Assembly: GCA_016185105.1 (NCBI GenBank)
Contig: JACPOE010000042.1
Location: 1 to 39,488 of the forward strand
Direction of reading: 5' to 3'
From: Bdellovibrio sp.
GTDB lineage: Bacteria > Bdellovibrionota > UBA1018
Length of the DNA stretch: 39,488 bases
Below the pieces are notes generated by a model, which was not told the DNA's origin, searched no databases, and saw nothing but the letters and a program-made list of their open reading frames with translations. Numbering within the stretch: position 1 is the stretch's first letter; each line of letters starts with the position of its first letter. Position numbers and translations under genes: made by a program. Shown piece after piece: positions 15,370-23,875 of this stretch.

Positions 15370-16539
15370 TTAGTTTTTCAAGCTACGCAATGCACTGACT
15401 TGGTCCGTCTTCTCCCAGGTGAACTCGGGCTCGAGCCGACCAAAATGCCCGTATGCAGCAGTCTTGGTATAAATCGGACGGAGGAGATTCAAAGACTCGA
15501 TAATCCCAGAGGGACGCAGCTGAAACAACTCCCGAGCTGCCGTTTCAAGCTTAGAAATGGCAATCTTCTCGGTTCCAAACCCATTCACCATGACGCTGAC
15601 GGGTTCAGCCACGCCAATAGCATACGCCAACTGGACGAGACAACGGTCTGCAAGTCCTGCGGCTACAATGTTCTTGGCCAAGTATCGACCCATATAGCAA
15701 GCGGATCGGTCTACCTTTGAAGGATCTTTACCAGAGAACGCACCGCCCCCGTGGGCCCCATGTCCGCCGTAGGTATCTACAATAATCTTTCTTCCGGTAA
15801 GACCACAGTCGCCCATCGGACCACCGACCACAAACCTGCCCGTTGGGTTGACATAATATTTAGTTTTGGAATCCAAAAGATGCGCAGGGACGGTCTTCTT
15901 AATGACCTCCTCAATCAACGCTTCTTGAATCTGTTTGTGAGAAACACTGTCCTCATGCTGAGAACTTACAACGATGGTGTCTACACGCTTGGGACGGTCA
16001 TTTTCGTATTCAACCGTGACCTGTGTTTTTCCGTCAGGTCGCAGCCAAGGCAAAGTCCCATCTTTTCGAACCTGAGATAACCTCAAGGCCAATTTATGAG
16101 AAAGATCGATCGACAGAGGCATTAGCTGCTCGGACTCGCGTGTTGCGTAACCGAACATCAACCCCTGGTCCCCTGCCCCTTGATCTTTCTGATTATGCAT
16201 CCCTTGACCGGTGGTTACACCCTGGGAAATATCCGGAGACTGCCTATCAAGCGTGACAACTACGCCGCAGGTCTTGTAATCAAACCCTTTTTCGGATGAG
16301 TCATAGCCAATCTTTTTAACCGTCTGACGAGCCACATCAGCGTAGTCAATCCTAGCATTCGTGGTCACTTCTCCAGCAACAACGATCAGACCAGTGGTGA
16401 CTAAAGTCTCGCAAGCAACTCGGGATTTTGGATCCTGAGTCAACAGAGCATCCAAAATGGAGTCTGAAATTTGGTCTGCGATTTTATCTGGATGGCCTTC
16501 GGTTACCGATTCGGACGTAAAAAGATATTGATTTGACAT
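15370..16539 (-). CDS. metK: S-adenosylmethionine synthetase
   Basis: MetK makes S-adenosylmethionine from methionine and ATP in the cytoplasm. The 389-aa protein (from ATG 16539) has the normal family length. It has the signature [19 protein letters not shown] near the N-terminus, the ATP-site loop DQGLMFGYA, the second signature [22 protein letters not shown] and a C-terminal [18 protein letters not shown] four codons upstream (16551) extends the frame, but the ATG with GGATG upstream fits the known [19 protein letters not shown] start better. It is encoded 32 nt after the small basic protein gene and shares its promoter. No SAM riboswitch is seen. Confidence 0.96.
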
Positions 16540-16571
16540 AGATGCATCCAATTTGTTTTTAGAAGTTGATT

Positions 16572-16700
16572 TTAATTTTCGACGTGAATCGGGAACTTTG
16601 GGGTAGTTCCTTTATTCTGCTGCTTACGTTTGCGAGGCTTTCCTTTGCGAGCTTTTCGAATTTTTCGAGCTGTCTTCGTTTTCATCATGCGTGATGGCAT
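16572..16700 (-). CDS. Small, very basic protein upstream of metK
   Basis: This is a 42-aa protein with a strongly cationic middle ([20 protein letters not shown]) and a short [11 protein letters not shown] tail. Such composition suggests RNA or ribosome binding, but I do not recognise a named family with certainty. The start ATG 16700 is supported by GGAG 11 nt upstream and by a sigma-70-like promoter whose predicted start site (about 16728) lies inside the longer ORF that begins at 16763, so the longer version would not be transcribed whole. It precedes metK by 32 nt in the same operon. Confidence 0.65.
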
Positions 16701-16734
16701 ATAAATCTTGTCTCCAATATAGAAATTTCCAGAT

Positions 16735-16763
16735 TTATCACTCAGAATGGTCAGGAAAGTCAA
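16735..16763 (-). promoter_or_regulatory. Sigma-70-type promoter of the small basic protein-metK operon
   Basis: On the minus strand there is TTGACT (16763-16758), a 17-nt spacer and TGATAA (16740-16735), close to the -35/-10 consensus. The predicted start near 16728 leaves a leader of about 28 nt containing GGAG before ATG 16700. Confidence 0.6.
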
Positions 16764-16812: not shown

Positions 16813-18270
16813 ATGCGATCCAGACTTCTTCTTATTTGCCTGTTCGTTGGATGGTTCCTCACCCGAAGCGCGTCCGCAAATATGCTGGACGGTCCACCCA
16901 TAGTCCTGTCTCAGGGAGAGCAAAAAATCCTAACCATTCCAGATTTAAGAAGATTTTCAATCGGAAGTCCCATCTTACGAGCGACGCCCCCTCCTCAATT
17001 TAAGAGAGACCCAGGGAAAAACCTATTAATGATCAAGGGCGTTTCGCCCGGCTTGACTGACCTGGTCGTCTGGAAGGACGACGGAACGGTTGAAAAGCGG
17101 TCGGTGCAAGTTTTGAAAGGCGGCCGCGATGAGCTCAGTCCGGCACTCCTGAGATCCTTGAGTCGCTTGAACGAAGTCGAAATACTCTTCACAGGAAAAG
17201 GAGCCGTTCTGAGAGGAGAGGTTCAAAGCCACAAAGAAGCAGAAATTCTTAATGGAATCACTAAAAGCTTTCCTGACTTAATTCATGATGAAACCGAAAT
17301 AAACGAAGAGCTTCTTCACCAGGCCACGGCAGATCTCAGAAAGTGGATCGACACCAGTCAATTGGGAGGGCGGCTAACCCTGGGCCAGACCGGAGCACAA
17401 CTCTGGATTCGCGGCACCGCTTCTAGCCCCAGCGATAAACAAAGCCTCATCCGAAAAGCCAAAGCCATTTTTGGTGGCGTTCAAGTAGAGCTGGACACCC
17501 TGCCAGACCATGCTCCGACCGTCTATTTTAGAGTTTTTCTGTTAGAGCTGAAAAGAAATCACTTTCAGACGCTGGGCTTGTCCTGGCCCTTAGGAATCCC
17601 AGATGCAGTCCAAATTACTTCTGGATCCATTCAAGACCTGATGCAAATCCATTTAGCCATACAAAGCCTAGAAGGCACTGGCCACGCTCGGATCCTGTCC
17701 AAGCCAGAGGTTGTAGTTCGTGCACCTGGTGAAGCTGAGCTTTTCGTTGGAGGTGAGCTTCCCATCCAAATCCAAAACCGATACTTCTCTAACGTTTCGT
17801 GGAAAAACTACGGTCTTACGTTGAAGCTCAAAGTCTCCCACGTCACAGGGGAAAAAATTCGCCTGGATATCTTCACGGAGCTCAGTCATCTCGACCCCCA
17901 GATCTCACAAAGCCAAGTCCCAGGTTTCCAGTCGAATCGAATGAAAACCCAAGTCGATGCTACGTTCGGAGCCCCCCTTCTTTTATCGGGGCTCCTCCAG
18001 CAGAAGGTTCGAGAAGAAGTGAAGGGTCTTCCAATCTTGAAAAACATTCCCGTCCTCGGCGCCCTATTTGGCTCTACCGACTATTTAAATGAACAATCCG
18101 AACTGGTAGCGATTCTTTACCCAGGACTCGCCCCCCCTCCGGTGAAAATCGGCCACCGGTTCAACACCGTTGGTTCGGAAAAAATTCCAGCTCCACGAAA
18201 TTGGAAAAATCCGACCGTCAAAACAAAACCCGGAGAAAGTGAGAACTACCCATGGAACCTTCTGGAATAG
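16813..18270 (+). CDS. Secretin of a Tad-like pilus/secretion system (CpaC/RcpA-like)
   Basis: This is a predicted outer-membrane secretin channel for a Tad/Flp-type machine. The 485-aa protein starts with a signal peptide (about residues 1-22, ending SASA). An N-terminal BON/T2S-N-like part with QGEQKILTIPDLRRFSIG at about 34-51 is typical of CpaC. A middle domain spans about 115-240, and the secretin core about 285-438, including ARILSKPEVVV, VPGFQSNRMKTQVD and GLPILKNIPVLGALFGS. The order and the GLPxLxxIPVLGxLF motif are diagnostic of secretins. Its 3' end overlaps the cpaF start by 19 nt. The ATG at 16813 has only a weak ribosome binding site. Confidence 0.9.
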   Translation: MRSRLLLICLFVGWFLTRSASANMLDGPPIVLSQGEQKILTIPDLRRFSIGSPILRATPPPQFKRDPGKNLLMIKGVSPGLTDLVVWKDDGTVEKRSVQVLKGGRDELSPALLRSLSRLNEVEILFTGKGAVLRGEVQSHKEAEILNGITKSFPDLIHDETEINEELLHQATADLRKWIDTSQLGGRLTLGQTGAQLWIRGTASSPSDKQSLIRKAKAIFGGVQVELDTLPDHAPTVYFRVFLLELKRNHFQTLGLSWPLGIPDAVQITSGSIQDLMQIHLAIQSLEGTGHARILSKPEVVVRAPGEAELFVGGELPIQIQNRYFSNVSWKNYGLTLKLKVSHVTGEKIRLDIFTELSHLDPQISQSQVPGFQSNRMKTQVDATFGAPLLLSGLLQQKVREEVKGLPILKNIPVLGALFGSTDYLNEQSELVAILYPGLAPPPVKIGHRFNTVGSEKIPAPRNWKNPTVKTKPGESENYPWNLLE

Positions 18271-19235
18271 TCGCTCAGTGTCTTAAAGAAGCCCTAGCGA
18301 ATGCTCAAGTCACGGATATCTGCGTTAATGGCTCCTCTGGAGTTTACATTGACCAGGGATTCGGAATGCAGCCGCTAAGCCCCCCCTACTCCACAAAGGA
18401 CTTTACCCAAGAACAAGTACGAGAATGGGTTCTTGATCAGCTGACCTCAGTCGGTAAGACCTGGGACGCACGACACCCCTTTGTGGATGCCTCTCTTCCT
18501 TCGGGGCATCGCCTCCATGTTGCCTTCCCGCCGCTCTCTCAGCAGGGAATTTTGATCTCACTTCGAAAAATTCCGGTCTCGAATCCTAATGTCCCCCGTC
18601 AAAGTGGGATTAAACTCGCAAGGAATCGTTGGGCAAGCTCGCCTCTATTCGAACGTTTATTGGAAATTGTCCAATCTGGAGACTCGATCTTGCTAAGCGG
18701 AGCAACCGGTAGCGGCAAAACCACTCTTGCCAATGATCTTTTGTCGGCAGTGCCGGAATCGGAAAGAATTATCGCACTGGAAGATACTCGAGAACTCGCA
18801 CCGGCCCATCCCCATTTTGTGTCTCTCAACAGCCGACCTGCAAACGCGGACGGTTTCGGTGAGGTGACTCTCAGAACGCTTCTTCGGCAAACTTTACGGA
18901 TGCGGCCTGATCGCATCATTTTAGGAGAGTGCCGCGGTGCCGAAGTGCTTGAGCTTTTACAGGCTCTTAACACGGGGCATAGAGGGGCAATGGCTACTCT
19001 TCATGCGAATTCCCCTCGTGAAGCACTCCGCCGCATAGAACTCCTCTGTTTAATCGCTTCATCGGGCTCGGTCCCCATTCCCTGTATCCGAGAACTTCTA
19101 GCTGTCGGAGTCCAATGGATTGCCCAGGTCAAACGATTGAGCGAGGGACGGAGAATCCAAGAATTATGGAAAATTGAGGGCCGCGAAGGGGATACAATTC
19201 TTCTACGGCAAGTGCTAGGATCAACTCTACCGTGA
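18252..19235 (+). CDS. cpaF: Tad-type secretion ATPase (CpaF/TadA-like), short N-terminus
   Basis: This is a cytoplasmic hexameric ATPase powering a Tad-like pilus or secretion system. The 327-aa protein has the CpaF N-terminal sheet (VTDICVNGSSGVYIDQG at about 20-36 and HPFVDASLPSGHRLHVAFPP at about 75-94). Walker A GATGSGKT is at 150-157, the Asp box ALEDTREL at about 175-182, Walker B DRIILGECRG at about 220-229 and the His box HRGAMATLHANS at 243-254. Most CpaF proteins are 420-500 aa, and the helical N-terminal extension of about 80-100 residues is absent here. The start ATG lies inside the secretin gene. It overlaps the next gene by 4 nt (GTGA). Confidence 0.93.
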   Translation: MEPSGIVAQCLKEALANAQVTDICVNGSSGVYIDQGFGMQPLSPPYSTKDFTQEQVREWVLDQLTSVGKTWDARHPFVDASLPSGHRLHVAFPPLSQQGILISLRKIPVSNPNVPRQSGIKLARNRWASSPLFERLLEIVQSGDSILLSGATGSGKTTLANDLLSAVPESERIIALEDTRELAPAHPHFVSLNSRPANADGFGEVTLRTLLRQTLRMRPDRIILGECRGAEVLELLQALNTGHRGAMATLHANSPREALRRIELLCLIASSGSVPIPCIRELLAVGVQWIAQVKRLSEGRRIQELWKIEGREGDTILLRQVLGSTLP

Positions 19236-20230
19236 CGGATCAAAAGATGCTTCCACAGATGAACAAGTCTTCCTATGATAATTGGTTCCTAAAGATAAAT
19301 GACCCAACCTCCCAAAGAGCGCTGTGGTTGCGGTTTTCTGCCCTGGTTAGCTCCAATGGATTTAGAAGGGTAGCAGATAATCTAGCGATTTATTCCCAAC
19401 GAACTGCTCAAGATGAAGTAAAGAAAACAGCATTAAAACAAAGTTACGACTTGAGCGCTTCCGAACGTTCCGACCCAGAGCCAAGCATTCGCACCGGGGA
19501 TTGTAGCCTCACTCCTGTATCCTCGCATGGCACAATCACCTCAAAAGGGAGCACCATCAGCTGGGACCTTACTTTCGCACCTTCGCGCCAGGTCGGCTTC
19601 GAGCCAATTCCTGAAAGGTTTCAGAAAATCGGTCTCATTAGAAATTCTTTTCGGACCCCCTTTGAGGACGTTGCTGTCAGCGGAAGAACAACCCTCAACG
19701 GAGAAACTTTCCACTGGAAGGATGCCCCTGGGATGTTGGGCCACCGCAGCGGAGTTAGAAACCCCTATTCTTGGACGTGGGGACACTGCAATACTTTTAA
19801 GGATGAGCAAGGGAATTATTCTGATTTTATATTTGAGGGTCTGAGCGCTCGATTCAAACTAGGCCCTTTTGTTACACCCCCAGCTTCGGCATTTTTTTTC
19901 TCCTACCGTGGAACTGAGTACGTATTCAACTCCCTGAGACGCCTGTTACAAATCAAGTCCAATCATAGTTTGAATGAGTGGACCTTTGAGGCGGGGAAAG
20001 ACGATCTTTCGTTCCGAGGATACCTGAAGGCTGAACATAAAGATTTCGCAGGACTCTCATTTGAAGACACCAATGGATCATTGCTCTACTCATCGAACTC
20101 CCTCCTTTCCAATATGCGGATCTTAGTCTACCGTTCTGGAAAATTAGAGGCCACTCTACAATCCCAAGGGTCGGCGGCATTTGAGATCGCTTCAAGAGAG
20201 AGAAATCCTTACGTTCCCCTGATTTTTTAG
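19232..20230 (+). CDS. Lipocalin-like / tocopherol-cyclase-like (AttH/CrtC/Svf1-type) protein in the Tad cluster
   Basis: This 332-aa soluble-looking protein has no signal peptide. Its N-terminus, NWFLKINDPTSQRALWLRFS (about residues 17-36), and the GHRSGVRNPYSWTWGHCNTF segment (about 173-192) resemble the double lipocalin-like fold of the AttH/CrtC/Svf1/tocopherol cyclase superfamily, whose members bind or modify lipophilic molecules. That assignment rests on motif resemblance only. The GTG start at 19232 overlaps the cpaF stop. ATGs at 19247 or later are alternatives. It is located between cpaF and the TadB/C-like gene with tight spacing, which implies co-expression with the pilus machinery, but its role there is unknown. 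Confidence 0.65.
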   Translation: MTDQKMLPQMNKSSYDNWFLKINDPTSQRALWLRFSALVSSNGFRRVADNLAIYSQRTAQDEVKKTALKQSYDLSASERSDPEPSIRTGDCSLTPVSSHGTITSKGSTISWDLTFAPSRQVGFEPIPERFQKIGLIRNSFRTPFEDVAVSGRTTLNGETFHWKDAPGMLGHRSGVRNPYSWTWGHCNTFKDEQGNYSDFIFEGLSARFKLGPFVTPPASAFFFSYRGTEYVFNSLRRLLQIKSNHSLNEWTFEAGKDDLSFRGYLKAEHKDFAGLSFEDTNGSLLYSSNSLLSNMRILVYRSGKLEATLQSQGSAAFEIASRERNPYVPLIF

Positions 20231-20245
20231 AAAGAATCCAAAATC

Positions 20246-21268
20246 ATGATTTTATGGAGCAGCGTTTTTTTATGCCTTTTTCTGGCTGTGCGTCTTCTTT
20301 ATGCTGAATCAATCCAAAACAAGGGACTCTTTGGATTTGCAAAAAAGAAACTAGAGCTGGCTGAGGTCATTCTTTTGCTTAGAGAAATAGAGGATTGCCT
20401 CTCGGCAGGTCAAGTTCCAGAGCGCGAGGTTTGGGAAAACTTGAAAGAGCTTCCAGCTCCTTGGGGTGCACTTTCTTACGAAAGTATAACCGCTCTACGA
20501 GAGTCGGGTGGCTCCCTCCTCCCGACGTTAAAAAGGCTGCGCTCGCTAGCTGAAGACCAAGCAACTGCATTGCTGGACGCGAGATCAAAAACTTCTCAGG
20601 CTTTTGCGCAAGCCTTTGCTTGTGCGAGTCTAGTTCCTATCCTTGGGTACGGCCTCTATTCAATCGTCCCTGGAATGACCGATCAATCTCGCCCGTGGGC
20701 GTTCGCCTGTGGATGCGCCCTGCTTTTTACAGGCTTCGGTGCATTATGGATGGTGAGGCTTGCTGAAACCGCTAGATGGGGCGGACTGCCCAAAGAAAAT
20801 CGAGTGTGGCTTCTGGGTGCTTTAATCGCAGGGGAACGTTTTTTAGCAGCAATTCGTTGTGGAACTCCTCCTGATTTGGCCTGGTCCAAAGCGGTGGATA
20901 CACTCAGAGTCGACGCTTTGAACCTATCTATTGCTTGGGGGCATTCAGTCTGGGAAACCCCTCCAAACCCCTATCGACAGGCTGCCGAAAAATCGATCGT
21001 CTCAGCAGGCTCCTCAATTAAAAAGTCGATTCAAGTCAGTCTACTCGAAGGAAGGCCGTGCACCGATCGAATTGAATCCACACTCCTGGTGATGCGAAAT
21101 GAGGTTTCAGCAATCATAGAAAGAGAATTGAGCCTTCTGACCACTAGGGCTCTAAAACCCCTTTTCATTTTCGTAGCGCCCTCTTTATTAGGATTGCTCT
21201 TTTATGGTCTCTGGCTAACCGCACAGGCAGGCCTTCAGGAAAGCCTAGCCGAAACTGGCTTATTTTAA
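20246..21268 (+). CDS. TadB/TadC-like inner-membrane platform protein, two halves in one chain
   Basis: This 340-aa membrane protein probably forms the inner-membrane platform of the Tad-like system. Hydrophobic helices lie at about residues 3-20, 120-142, 150-172 and 304-326. Each half reads like a type II secretion F (T2SSF) domain. The first has LREIEDCLSAGQVPEREVWENL and a following RESGGSLLPTLKRLRSLA. The second has GERFLAAIRCGTPPDLAWSKAV and ends ELSLLTTRALKPLFIFVAPSLLG. In typical Tad operons these are two proteins, TadB and TadC. The gene follows the lipocalin-like gene by 15 nt. Sequence similarity is weak, so the call rests on topology, motif feel and neighbours. Confidence 0.65.
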   Translation: MILWSSVFLCLFLAVRLLYAESIQNKGLFGFAKKKLELAEVILLLREIEDCLSAGQVPEREVWENLKELPAPWGALSYESITALRESGGSLLPTLKRLRSLAEDQATALLDARSKTSQAFAQAFACASLVPILGYGLYSIVPGMTDQSRPWAFACGCALLFTGFGALWMVRLAETARWGGLPKENRVWLLGALIAGERFLAAIRCGTPPDLAWSKAVDTLRVDALNLSIAWGHSVWETPPNPYRQAAEKSIVSAGSSIKKSIQVSLLEGRPCTDRIESTLLVMRNEVSAIIERELSLLTTRALKPLFIFVAPSLLGLLFYGLWLTAQAGLQESLAETGLF

Positions 21269-21271
21269 ACA

Positions 21272-21502
21272 ATGACTACAAACACACAGAGAACAGAAAG
21301 GTGGATCTTCTATTGGGCTATTTTCACTCTTTTTTTAGCGGTTTGCATGGACCCAATACCCTGGATCTTTCCGTTGAATGGTGAGTATTGGTTGGATTCT
21401 CTTTCGAAAAAAGAAGCTTCTAGTTCCCAGCAGAATCCTTTTTCCAATAGGTCCCGACAGGCACCTCGCCCCCCACGGTCAACTCAGGAATTCGCAAGGT
21501 AG
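21272..21502 (+). CDS. Small predicted membrane protein, overlapping the tldD 3' end
   Basis: This is a 76-aa ORF three nt after the TadB/C-like gene, with one hydrophobic helix (WIFYWAIFTLFLAVCMDPIPWIF, about residues 11-33) and a polar Ser/Arg/Pro tail. The last roughly 83 nt overlap the antisense 3' end of tldD. Tight spacing after the preceding gene argues for translation, whereas the tail could be an accident of the overlap. The function is not recognised; a small pilus-related membrane protein is possible. Confidence 0.4.
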   Translation: MTTNTQRTERWIFYWAIFTLFLAVCMDPIPWIFPLNGEYWLDSLSKKEASSSQQNPFSNRSRQAPRPPRSTQEFAR

Positions 21503-22607
21503 GCTGAGCATCTGTAACCGGAGCACCCTGGCCGTCCTTTCCGCAAGTACCTGTTGAAAAACCCAAATCATTCCCGACACGGTCAACAATGGAGAGGACT
21601 TTCGGCCCATTCCCCACCAAAGTCGCGCCTCGAATAGGCTCGGCAAGTTTTCCATTTCGAATCAGGTAGCCTTCCGTCACAGCAAAAACAAAATCTCCAG
21701 TGACAGTATTAACCTGGCCTCCGCCCATTGCTTTCACAAAAACTCCCCAGTCAGTGTCTTTAAGAATTTTTTCCGGATCATCCTTACCAGGAGCGATGTA
21801 GGTGTTTGTCATCCGAACAATCGGTTTATGACGAAAAGACTCTCTTCTACCATTTCCGGTAGCCATAAGATCAAATTTCAATGCCGAAAGCCGATCCACC
21901 ATGTAGCTCTTCAACACGCCTTGTTCAATTAAAGTACTTGGCTGTGCGGGCGTTCCTTCATCATCAAAACTGTAACTGCCCCTCTTGCCCGCTAACGTAC
22001 CGTCATCCATAACGGTAATTAAGGGGGAGGCCACTTTTTGCCCCAGCTTCCCTTCGTAAACAGAAAGACCATTGCAAGCAAGGTCGGCCTCAAGACCATG
22101 GCCAACAGCTTCATGAATCATGGTACCCCCGGCTTCGGAGGCCAAGACCACAGGCATCGTCCCTGAAGGCGCAGGCTTTGCACCGAGGAGGACACCTACC
22201 CGTTGGGCTGCCATTTTTCCAAGCTCTTTATAGTCGGCAATGCTCTTGTGCGATTGTCGCGCTGTTTGCCACTCTATCTCTTTTGCTGAATTCGATTTGG
22301 AAGACCCTTTCTTTCCAATTACCGCCTCAGATAGAGTCTCGGCTAAACGGAGCAAAGAAATCTCAGTCAACTCAGTGGTATAGCCGTAGACACTGCGGCC
22401 ATCAAAAAGGATTCGCAGGCCTACGCCTCGGTCAATTCCGTCTGTAACGCGGTCTAGACGGCCACCCTCAAAAATGACCCGAGTCGAGGCAGTATTTTCA
22501 AAAAAAAGCTCGGCCAGCACGCCGCCATTTCTTAGTGCCGTCTTAAATACTTTCTCAATATCGACAGACTTAACTCCAAAACTATTGAGTGCCTGCTTTA
22601 ATTTCAT
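21420..22607 (-). CDS. tldD: TldD-family metalloprotease, shorter than usual
   Basis: TldD works with TldE/PmbA as a heterodimeric zinc protease that trims unfolded peptides. The 395-aa protein keeps the N-terminal TldD subdomain (about residues 30-92, EGGRLDRVTDGIDRGVGLRI) and the full catalytic part. This includes HExxxH within MIHEAVGHGLEAD (His165, Glu166, His170), GSYSFDDEG, the C-terminal Cys ligand in STGTCGKDGQG (Cys355), and RGATLVGNG. TldD proteins are usually 450-480 aa. Here the second N-terminal subdomain, which normally lies between the first subdomain and GTMPVVL, is reduced to about 45 polar residues (about 98-142), roughly 75 fewer than E. coli TldD. The frame is uninterrupted. 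No tldE is in the window. It overlaps the upstream DUF4911-like gene by 26 nt. Confidence 0.9.
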   Translation of the reverse strand: MKLKQALNSFGVKSVDIEKVFKTALRNGGVLAELFFENTASTRVIFEGGRLDRVTDGIDRGVGLRILFDGRSVYGYTTELTEISLLRLAETLSEAVIGKKGSSKSNSAKEIEWQTARQSHKSIADYKELGKMAAQRVGVLLGAKPAPSGTMPVVLASEAGGTMIHEAVGHGLEADLACNGLSVYEGKLGQKVASPLITVMDDGTLAGKRGSYSFDDEGTPAQPSTLIEQGVLKSYMVDRLSALKFDLMATGNGRRESFRHKPIVRMTNTYIAPGKDDPEKILKDTDWGVFVKAMGGGQVNTVTGDFVFAVTEGYLIRNGKLAEPIRGATLVGNGPKVLSIVDRVGNDLGFSTGTCGKDGQGAPVTDAQPTLRIPELTVGGEVPVGTYWKKDSAGN

Positions 22608-22833
22608 AAATGAGATCTCCTAGTTGCTGCAAAACTTCTTGTGTCTCGGTTACAAAATCTGGAGGAATCCTTAATTCAAGGTCTCTAAAAGCATCCCCCG
22701 TCTTAAAATCCAAGGTGGAATAGCTTGTTATTCCTTCATGAGATTCTAGGATGAAGTACACGAACGCGGAATCTTCTTTTCTCACTCGGATGATTTTTTT
22801 TTCAGACTTCAAAGGCGCACTTACCACTGACAT
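22582..22833 (-). CDS. DUF4911-like small protein
   Basis: This 83-aa protein of unknown function has the pattern FVYFILESHEGITSYSTLD, then LELRIPPDFVTETQEVLQQL, which resembles the DUF4911 family found mostly in delta-proteobacteria and their relatives. It has no signal peptide or membrane segment. Its 3' end overlaps the start of tldD by 26 nt, so the two are probably translated from one message. The family link is from memory of the pattern and not a search. Confidence 0.65.
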   Translation of the reverse strand: MSVVSAPLKSEKKIIRVRKEDSAFVYFILESHEGITSYSTLDFKTGDAFRDLELRIPPDFVTETQEVLQQLGDLIYEIKAGTQ

Positions 22834-22993
22834 CTCTACCTACCTCGATCGATTCACCCATTCGATCCAATTTTTGGCGATCACACTCAAAAAACCGTCA
22901 AAAACAAGACACTTTGACTTCAGCCTAAGGGATACCTCAGGTCCTCTCCTGGAAAAACTTGCTGATCCTCAGAGGGCACCTTATCCTATTGAT

Positions 22994-23875
22994 ATGAAAC
23001 CAAGCTCCCTATCCAGGGCTGGGCTTACCATACTTCCTGCTATTTTTCTTGCCCCAATCAGTATGCTCGCTCTCTCAGGCTGTTCAACTCTTTTTAGAAA
23101 AACAGACGCGAATCCGTCCACTCTGGACACTCCAGCGATCCTTTCTCCCGAGAAAGCTCCTGAGAAAACTGAAACTGTGGACAAAGACAAAGCTTACGCA
23201 ACCATCGATATGCGTCTTCAGATCATGGAAGCTAAACTGAACAGCCTGAACGACAAAATAGATGCGGCAAAGAGTGGGTTAGATACCCTCACTCTGAACA
23301 TGAAGCATCGGGAAACTCCAGTGCTTCCGGCCCCTTCGCAAGGTTTCGGAAAAAAGGTCTCGCCGCCTTTGGCCGTCAATGACCCCCAGGTTGGGTTTGA
23401 AGACGATGATGCCATACAAGACTTTCGCAAGGCCCTGATTCTCTTTCACGCCCAAAAATATCCAGAGGCCATTGTCTCGCTTTCCGAATATATCTCGATG
23501 AACTCGGACCATCCCCTGGCTGCAAGTGCCCAGTACTACCTCGGGGAAAGTTATTTCAGACAAAAGGAATACCGTTTGGCCCGACAAGAGTACCGTCGAG
23601 TCCTCGACTCTTACCCAGCTTCAGCCCATATTTCAGATGCGCTTCGTGGCCTTGCTTCCTGCTCGGACCTACTCCAGGATCGCTCAGGCTCGGCTATGTA
23701 TTGGCAAATGTTGAATATGGGGTTTCCACAGTCACCTGCAGCTGCCTTGCCGCTAAGCGCGATTGAGCCCAGCGCAGATACTCGAGAAAACCCGAAGCCC
23801 TCAAAAGATCTTGCCTCCGATCATACGTCAGCAATGCCAGCAACTGCTCCGATTGGAAGTCCTGAGCACCCATGA
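22994..23875 (+). CDS. CpoB/YbgF-like lipoprotein with coiled coil and TPR repeats
   Basis: This is a 293-aa envelope protein. A signal peptide ends in a lipobox LSGC (Cys30), so it is predicted to be lipid-anchored. It has a heptad-rich segment MRLQIMEAKLNSLNDKID at about residues 73-90, a Pro-rich linker, and then TPR-like repeats at about 140-245 (AQYYLGESYFRQKEYRLARQ, RRVLDSYPASAHISDALRGL). The coiled coil plus C-terminal TPR layout matches CpoB/YbgF, which coordinates outer-membrane constriction and peptidoglycan synthesis with Tol-Pal. No tol or pal genes are nearby. The frame is open further upstream, but ATG 22994 gives the signal peptide. It overlaps the LysM gene by 4 nt (ATGA). Confidence 0.8.
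   Translation: MKPSSLSRAGLTILPAIFLAPISMLALSGCSTLFRKTDANPSTLDTPAILSPEKAPEKTETVDKDKAYATIDMRLQIMEAKLNSLNDKIDAAKSGLDTLTLNMKHRETPVLPAPSQGFGKKVSPPLAVNDPQVGFEDDDAIQDFRKALILFHAQKYPEAIVSLSEYISMNSDHPLAASAQYYLGESYFRQKEYRLARQEYRRVLDSYPASAHISDALRGLASCSDLLQDRSGSAMYWQMLNMGFPQSPAAALPLSAIEPSADTRENPKPSKDLASDHTSAMPATAPIGSPEHP

Follow-up and report, generated by a model that had tools for sequence, protein, structure and literature searches.

The region at positions 16813 to 21502 of a Bdellovibrio sp. contig (JACPOE010000042.1, assembly GCA_016185105.1) raises the question of what a gene cluster with a secretin, a motor ATPase and an apparent platform protein, and no visible pilin, is for. The window analyzed here is the whole 39,488-nucleotide (nt) stretch, which lies on contig C96 of a draft genome of 1.69 Mb that is 82% complete. 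Five plus-strand genes, overlapping or nearly touching, lie between the minus-strand genes metK and tldD. A sequence-only reading had described four or five genes of a minimal Tad-like machine lacking flp, tadV, cpaE and tadD, which could be a reduced pilus or a secretion machine taking its substrate from elsewhere. All five open reading frames are real and the set is kept across the order, which rules out a chance grouping; the tight packing is as described, except that one of the five, encoding a 332-amino-acid (aa) protein, is no Tad part. None of flp, tadV, cpaE and tadD was recognized at the locus. The locus probably encodes the assembly components of a second Tad (type IVc pilus) system that is divided between loci, is ancient in the phylum Bdellovibrionota and is distinct from the canonical Tad system of this genome; its filament would be encoded elsewhere.

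The first two genes encode the outer membrane channel and the motor expected of a Tad system. The secretin has a signal peptide, a weak pilus N-domain, a secretin domain and, in the family alignment, a conserved C-terminal PWN motif; it is of the RcpA/CpaC type, and RcpA (8odn) is among its relatives of solved structure. The ATPase aligns to residues 151 to 450 of the 501-residue CpaF of Caulobacter crescentus (9e24; phmmer E value of 1.4e-57). It thus lacks the N-terminal ∼150 residues, as had been noticed from the sequence, and also the C-terminal ∼50. The Walker A motif (GATGSGKTT) and the conserved E177/D178 and R228 are intact in the alignment. This motor is of the CpaF/TadA type and not the GspE-type ATPase that, with GspF, GspC and pseudopilins, defines a type II secretion system, and a separate type II secretion/type IVa pilus set is encoded on contigs C35 and C36.

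The 340-aa protein had been read as a single chain with two T2SSF-like halves, to be examined by profile search and structure prediction. The AlphaFold model does show two helical halves (predicted local distance difference test [pLDDT], 89). The protein itself has no Pfam match at an E value of ≤1, and searches of NCBIfam and PDB sequences gave nothing useful. Foldseek comparison of the model with the PDB returned unrelated helical bundles only, none at an E value of ≤0.001, so that the fold search decides neither for nor against an F-domain, and the identification comes from chains of profile comparisons. Elsewhere in the phylum, the fusion profile finds two neighboring genes (∼200 to 260 aa and ∼145 aa), and several of these split homologs match PF00482: both members of the pair at locus L124 (2.9e-6 and 1.2e-9) and the C-half genes at L115 (1.4e-4) and L120 (3.6e-6). 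When profiles of the fusion halves plus the split relatives were compared with canonical TadB and TadC in hhalign, the N half matched TadB with a probability of 97.3 (TadC, 65.8) and the C half matched TadC with a probability of 96.2 (TadB, 15). The halves alone score lower, at 63.5% for the N half against TadB and 16.6% for the C half against TadC, and the split relatives are therefore needed as a bridge. By this route residues ∼28 to 177 correspond to TadB and ∼183 to 337 to TadC, so both platform domains of a Tad system, normally two genes, are present in one protein. Archaeal type IV pilus platforms also hold two F domains in one protein, with the N-terminal domain matching TadC and the C-terminal domain matching TadB (Denise et al., PMC6668835). 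This order is opposite to that in the window, which argues against an ancestral unsplit form; the sequences are most simply explained by a secondary fusion.

In another family, designated f9 (L235 and L238), a 278- to 301-aa protein of TadBC-like appearance is encoded near a divergent secretin-CpaF pair; it matches PF00482 in L235 (E value of 0.00095) and has no match in L238. At L121 to L123, L126 to L128, L133 and L134, which belong to other families, the split TadC gene is followed by a gene for a small, apparently secreted protein of no assigned family, in which two cysteines are conserved in the approximate pattern C-x(7-9)-[FILV]-P-x2-C.

Directly 3′ of the fusion gene (tadBC) lies a gene for a 76-aa mini-protein with a single membrane span and a PWxFP motif (RWIFYWAIFTLFLAVCMDPIPWIFPL...). 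Of 39 distinct relatives, 20 show the same pattern immediately after tadBC, and it never occurs on the antisense strand; by this recurrence we judge the open reading frame to be a real, conserved gene.

Conservation bears directly on whether the locus could be the remnant of a decaying Tad operon. Its gene set is reduced, and branch lengths indicate faster evolution than in canonical CpaF. The fusion is nevertheless kept in 24 of 30 near relatives and in 47 of the 55 genomes of the order, the secretin-CpaF pair recurs across the Bdellovibrionota, the fusion has invariant residues along its whole length and the Walker motifs are intact, and a decaying remnant is strongly disfavored. Relatives found by name are mostly metagenome-assembled genomes (MAGs) labeled Oligoflexia, Bdellovibrionales or Bacteriovoracaceae, all Bdellovibrionota. 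Secretin, cpaF and tadBC stand together beside metK in 19 of the 23 relative loci read, and the order metK/secretin-cpaF/tadBC/tpr/lysM is held in most. The sequence-only reading would have given way to a separate Tad operon combined with a lack of linkage in relatives; such an operon exists, but the linkage is conserved. The genes tadBC and cpaF point toward each other in most relatives and are codirectional only in the window and in genome G009 (L049), which suggests that tadBC and the mini-protein gene were inverted independently at least twice, each time as a one-gene inversion. In the window, these two genes are flanked by an imperfect 19-nt inverted repeat (79%).

The canonical Tad system of this genome comprises Flp, TadV, TadE/F-like proteins, CpaB, CpaC, a CpaE-CpaF fusion and TadB on contig C9, with TadC on C86. 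In the secretin tree, the window type groups with Flp-linked secretins from across the phylum, apart from the genome's own canonical RcpA (Shimodaira-Hasegawa approximate likelihood ratio test [SH-aLRT], 93), and in the CpaF tree it groups with CpaFs of sister families, away from the canonical one (SH-aLRT, 88). These trees place the secretin-CpaF pair, with moderate support, in a lineage separate from the canonical Tad system. We also considered Bd0470 of Bdellovibrio bacteriovorus, a predation-essential tadC (PMC6561027), as a counterpart of the split TadC. It was rejected, as it lies in an operon with an FHA protein, like the canonical TadC on C86, which precedes genes read by eye as FHA-like.

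A likely pilin is encoded elsewhere in the genome. Immediately upstream of pfkB, each of the 19 relatives for which enough sequence is available, this genome included (contig C87), has a cassette encoding Flp, TadE-like and TadF-like proteins, and in every readable relative its Flp has the canonical GQGL(T/S)EY cleavage motif (GQGLTEY here). The cassette Flp of this genome has no Pfam Flp_Fap match and was identified by motif, position and orthology; its TadE/TadF-like counterparts were identified by motif, position and similarity, and a TadE-like protein in a relative (L204) matches PF07811 at an E value of 5e-5. An Flp with a class III signal and the minor pilins are thus available to the window machine in trans only. 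In sister families, the orthologous secretin-CpaF pair shares one locus with Flp, TadE-like and TadF-like proteins and a hybrid kinase/response regulator. A hidden Markov model (HMM) of the pfkB-linked Flps scores seven secretin-linked Flps of the sister families at 27 to 54 bits and canonical Tad Flps, including that of this genome, at ≤22, and the TadF-like proteins of the order and of the sister families are related (hhalign probability, 80; E value of 1.4e-5). These two results tie the cassette to the machine despite their separate locations, and on them we infer the pairing of the cassette Flp with the window machine. The cassette also encodes an inner membrane protein of ∼190 aa, conserved at L214 to L230 and usually ending in DPRE(I/F)(R/H)(Y/F), for which no family was found; it is a candidate structural part of the pilus. 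As a CpaB equivalent this DPREIRY-ending protein was rejected, as it showed no relation to the 167-aa CpaB-like candidate of the sister families, which itself has no Pfam support.

The cassette also weighs on two other accounts of the locus. A pilin-free or pseudopilin-type machine, that is, a small exporter resembling a type II system, whose filament would be short and periplasmic and not a surface pilus, would fit the lack of a pilin at the locus, the lack of an identified CpaB, CpaE or TadD of its own, a motor without the CpaF N-terminal module and a cassette Flp that is short and outnumbered by minor pilin-like genes. We regard it as unlikely given the cleavage motif in every readable cassette Flp, the sister-family orthologs of that Flp, which are encoded at one locus with the window-type secretin and CpaF, and the lack of a conserved candidate exported protein at the locus. 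The genome carries a reduced Tad-like machine whose substrate is probably encoded elsewhere, as the sequence-only reading had supposed, and of the two outcomes which that reading had offered, the unlinked cassette makes a pilus-type filament simpler than a pilin-free secretion machine. Alternatively, the canonical Tad system could serve the cassette, leaving the window locus to another substrate. That system is conserved and has a full set of parts, including a CpaB, a CpaE-CpaF and a TadV of its own, and the cassette is physically unlinked from the window machine throughout the order; however, the canonical system has different Flps of its own (e.g., in L064), and the HMM of the pfkB-type Flps favors those linked to window-type secretin-CpaF pairs, which leaves this alternative very doubtful.

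Under the split Tad reading, the short CpaF would act as the cytoplasmic motor, and its ATP hydrolysis would move the one-piece TadBC platform, of which the 76-aa membrane protein is possibly a small subunit. TadBC would lift processed pilins of the Flp type out of the inner membrane; the fiber would exit through the dedicated secretin. Pilin and minor pilins would be supplied in trans by the pfkB-upstream cassette. Two A24 prepilin peptidases are encoded in the genome, TadV on C9 and a PilD-like enzyme on C54, and processing would be borrowed from one of them; no dedicated TadV lies at the locus, and the Tad model allows TadV to stand apart from the rest of the locus (PMC6668835). The gene content, the make-up of the fusion, the conservation, the separate lineage, the presence of the cassette and the orthology of its Flp to Flps encoded with this secretin-CpaF pair elsewhere are computed results; cooperation of machine and cassette, ATP-driven extrusion and arrival of the fiber at the surface are what we infer from these parts.

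Several points weigh against this reading, which is drawn from genes. No member of the order read has the machine linked to the pilin cassette; their pairing therefore comes without operon proof, and the canonical machine might in principle handle both sets of pilins. SH-aLRT values at the orthology nodes are 88 to 93, below 95; some members are long-branched, and 2 of 14 sister-family CpaFs fall outside the window-type group. Known Tad systems need several of CpaB, CpaE and TadD, and no equivalent of any of them was identified for the window system. The genome, at 82% completeness, has one CpaB/RcpC, which is located in the canonical operon. No TadZ/CpaE was seen at the locus or in the cassette, and the sole one seen is fused to the canonical CpaF on C9, no genome-wide TadZ search having been run. 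A more speculative account, which we hold only as a tentative possibility, takes the locus as a phylum-wide second Tad-derived machine that works without CpaE/TadZ, CpaB and TadD, with a re-fused TadB-TadC platform and a new mini-protein, and whose short Flp filament would be a secretion piston or envelope-spanning fiber and not a classical surface pilus.

Compared with canonical Tad (the C. crescentus cpa genes and those on C9 and C86), the window system has in common a CpaC-type secretin, a CpaF-type motor, TadB and TadC domains, an Flp with a class III signal and TadE-like/TadF-like minor pilins. It differs in its two unlinked loci (machine at metK, cassette at pfkB), whereas Tad systems are almost exclusively single-locus (Denise et al., PMC6668835), in the fused TadB-TadC, in a CpaF shortened at both ends, in the additional PWxFP mini-protein and in having no TadV of its own. 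B. bacteriovorus has flp genes outside the TAD operon, of which flp3 (bd3297) is silent in the laboratory and dispensable for predation (PMC5430801), and the proximity of bd3306 (annotated pilQ) to bd3307 (cpaF) has been reported (PMC3818213). Because the spacing of these published locus tags, by which alone they were matched, fits the sister-family locus running from Flp to secretin-CpaF, they are probably the counterpart of the window system, in which, unlike there, machine and pilin genes lie apart. The Kil system of Myxococcus xanthus (PMC8460266), as described, likewise belongs to a predatory group, is Tad-like and has its genes in two clusters, but it includes a CpaB, KilB, and its platform is made of two separate proteins, KilG and KilH.

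The window system is genuine and conserved: a reduced Tad-type system, divided between loci, whose platform is fused. No description of it as a separate machine was found in the literature searched, which largely excluded subscription papers. It suggests that Flp pilins encoded outside the TAD operon, for which that literature assigns no assembly machinery, have a machine dedicated to them, and it gives an indication of the minimal set of parts that a Tad system may require. With the fusion, the fission into separate TadB and TadC genes, regarded as a mark of how Tad originated, has been reversed. Since a single chain fixes TadB to TadC at one to one, it would lend itself to structural studies of how platform and motor are coupled.

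Table 1. Positions of the genes and elements discussed (window coordinates unless a contig or locus is named)
Feature	Position	Strand	Evidence
Secretin, CpaC/RcpA-type, 485 aa	16813-18270	+	PF00263 E 3.7e-29, PF13629 E 6e-4
Short CpaF/TadA-type motor ATPase, 327 aa	18252-19235	+	PF00437 E 2.3e-38
AttH/kievitone-hydratase-like passenger gene, 332 aa	19232-20230	+	AlphaFold2 (AF2), Foldseek
TadB-TadC fusion, predicted inner membrane platform, 340 aa	20246-21268	+	AF2, hhalign, split homologs
Single-span membrane mini-protein, 76 aa, PWxFP motif	21272-21502	+	Recurs 3′ of tadBC in relatives
Inverted repeat flanking tadBC and mini-protein gene (20246-21502)	20223-20241 / 21392-21410		
metK	15370-16551	-	
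Small basic protein	16572-16763	-	
tldD	21420-22607	-	
Tetratricopeptide repeat (TPR) lipoprotein	22751-23875		
Flp/TadE-like/TadF-like cassette, own genome	C87:57069-58904		
Cassette Flp, own genome	C87:58665-58904		
∼190-aa DPRE-type cassette protein, own genome (G000)	C87:57069-57668		
Flp of canonical Tad	L064:49-273		
f9 secretin-CpaF and TadBC-like region	L235:1166-7648		
f9 secretin-CpaF and TadBC-like region	L238:1371-7689		
Four-span membrane protein	L042:3934-4362		
Four-span membrane protein	L044:3271-3732		
Four-span membrane protein	L048:3951-4574		
Four-span membrane protein	L049:8060-8512		
Four-span membrane protein	L059:4365-4814		

The 332-aa protein has a predicted double-lipocalin fold of the AttH/kievitone hydratase kind (AF2 pLDDT, 86; Foldseek best match AttH, 2ich, E value of 1.2e-9; kievitone hydratase, 7a0t, E value of 1.4e-6), and its gene is missing from the locus in many relatives. 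It was rejected as a machine part on its fold and patchy presence, and its product is probably a small-molecule or lipid enzyme, judging from the model. In several relatives, a four-span membrane protein that is absent from the window and unassigned to a family is encoded between cpaF and the AttH-like gene. A small, very basic protein that is conserved in relatives (48 to 91% identity) is encoded in the interval from metK to the secretin gene. Compared with relatives, tldD shows a clean in-frame loss of ∼97 codons that removes the middle PmbA_TldD domain, which is either a real deletion or a MAG assembly error. The neighboring TPR lipoprotein best matches YbgF/CpoB.

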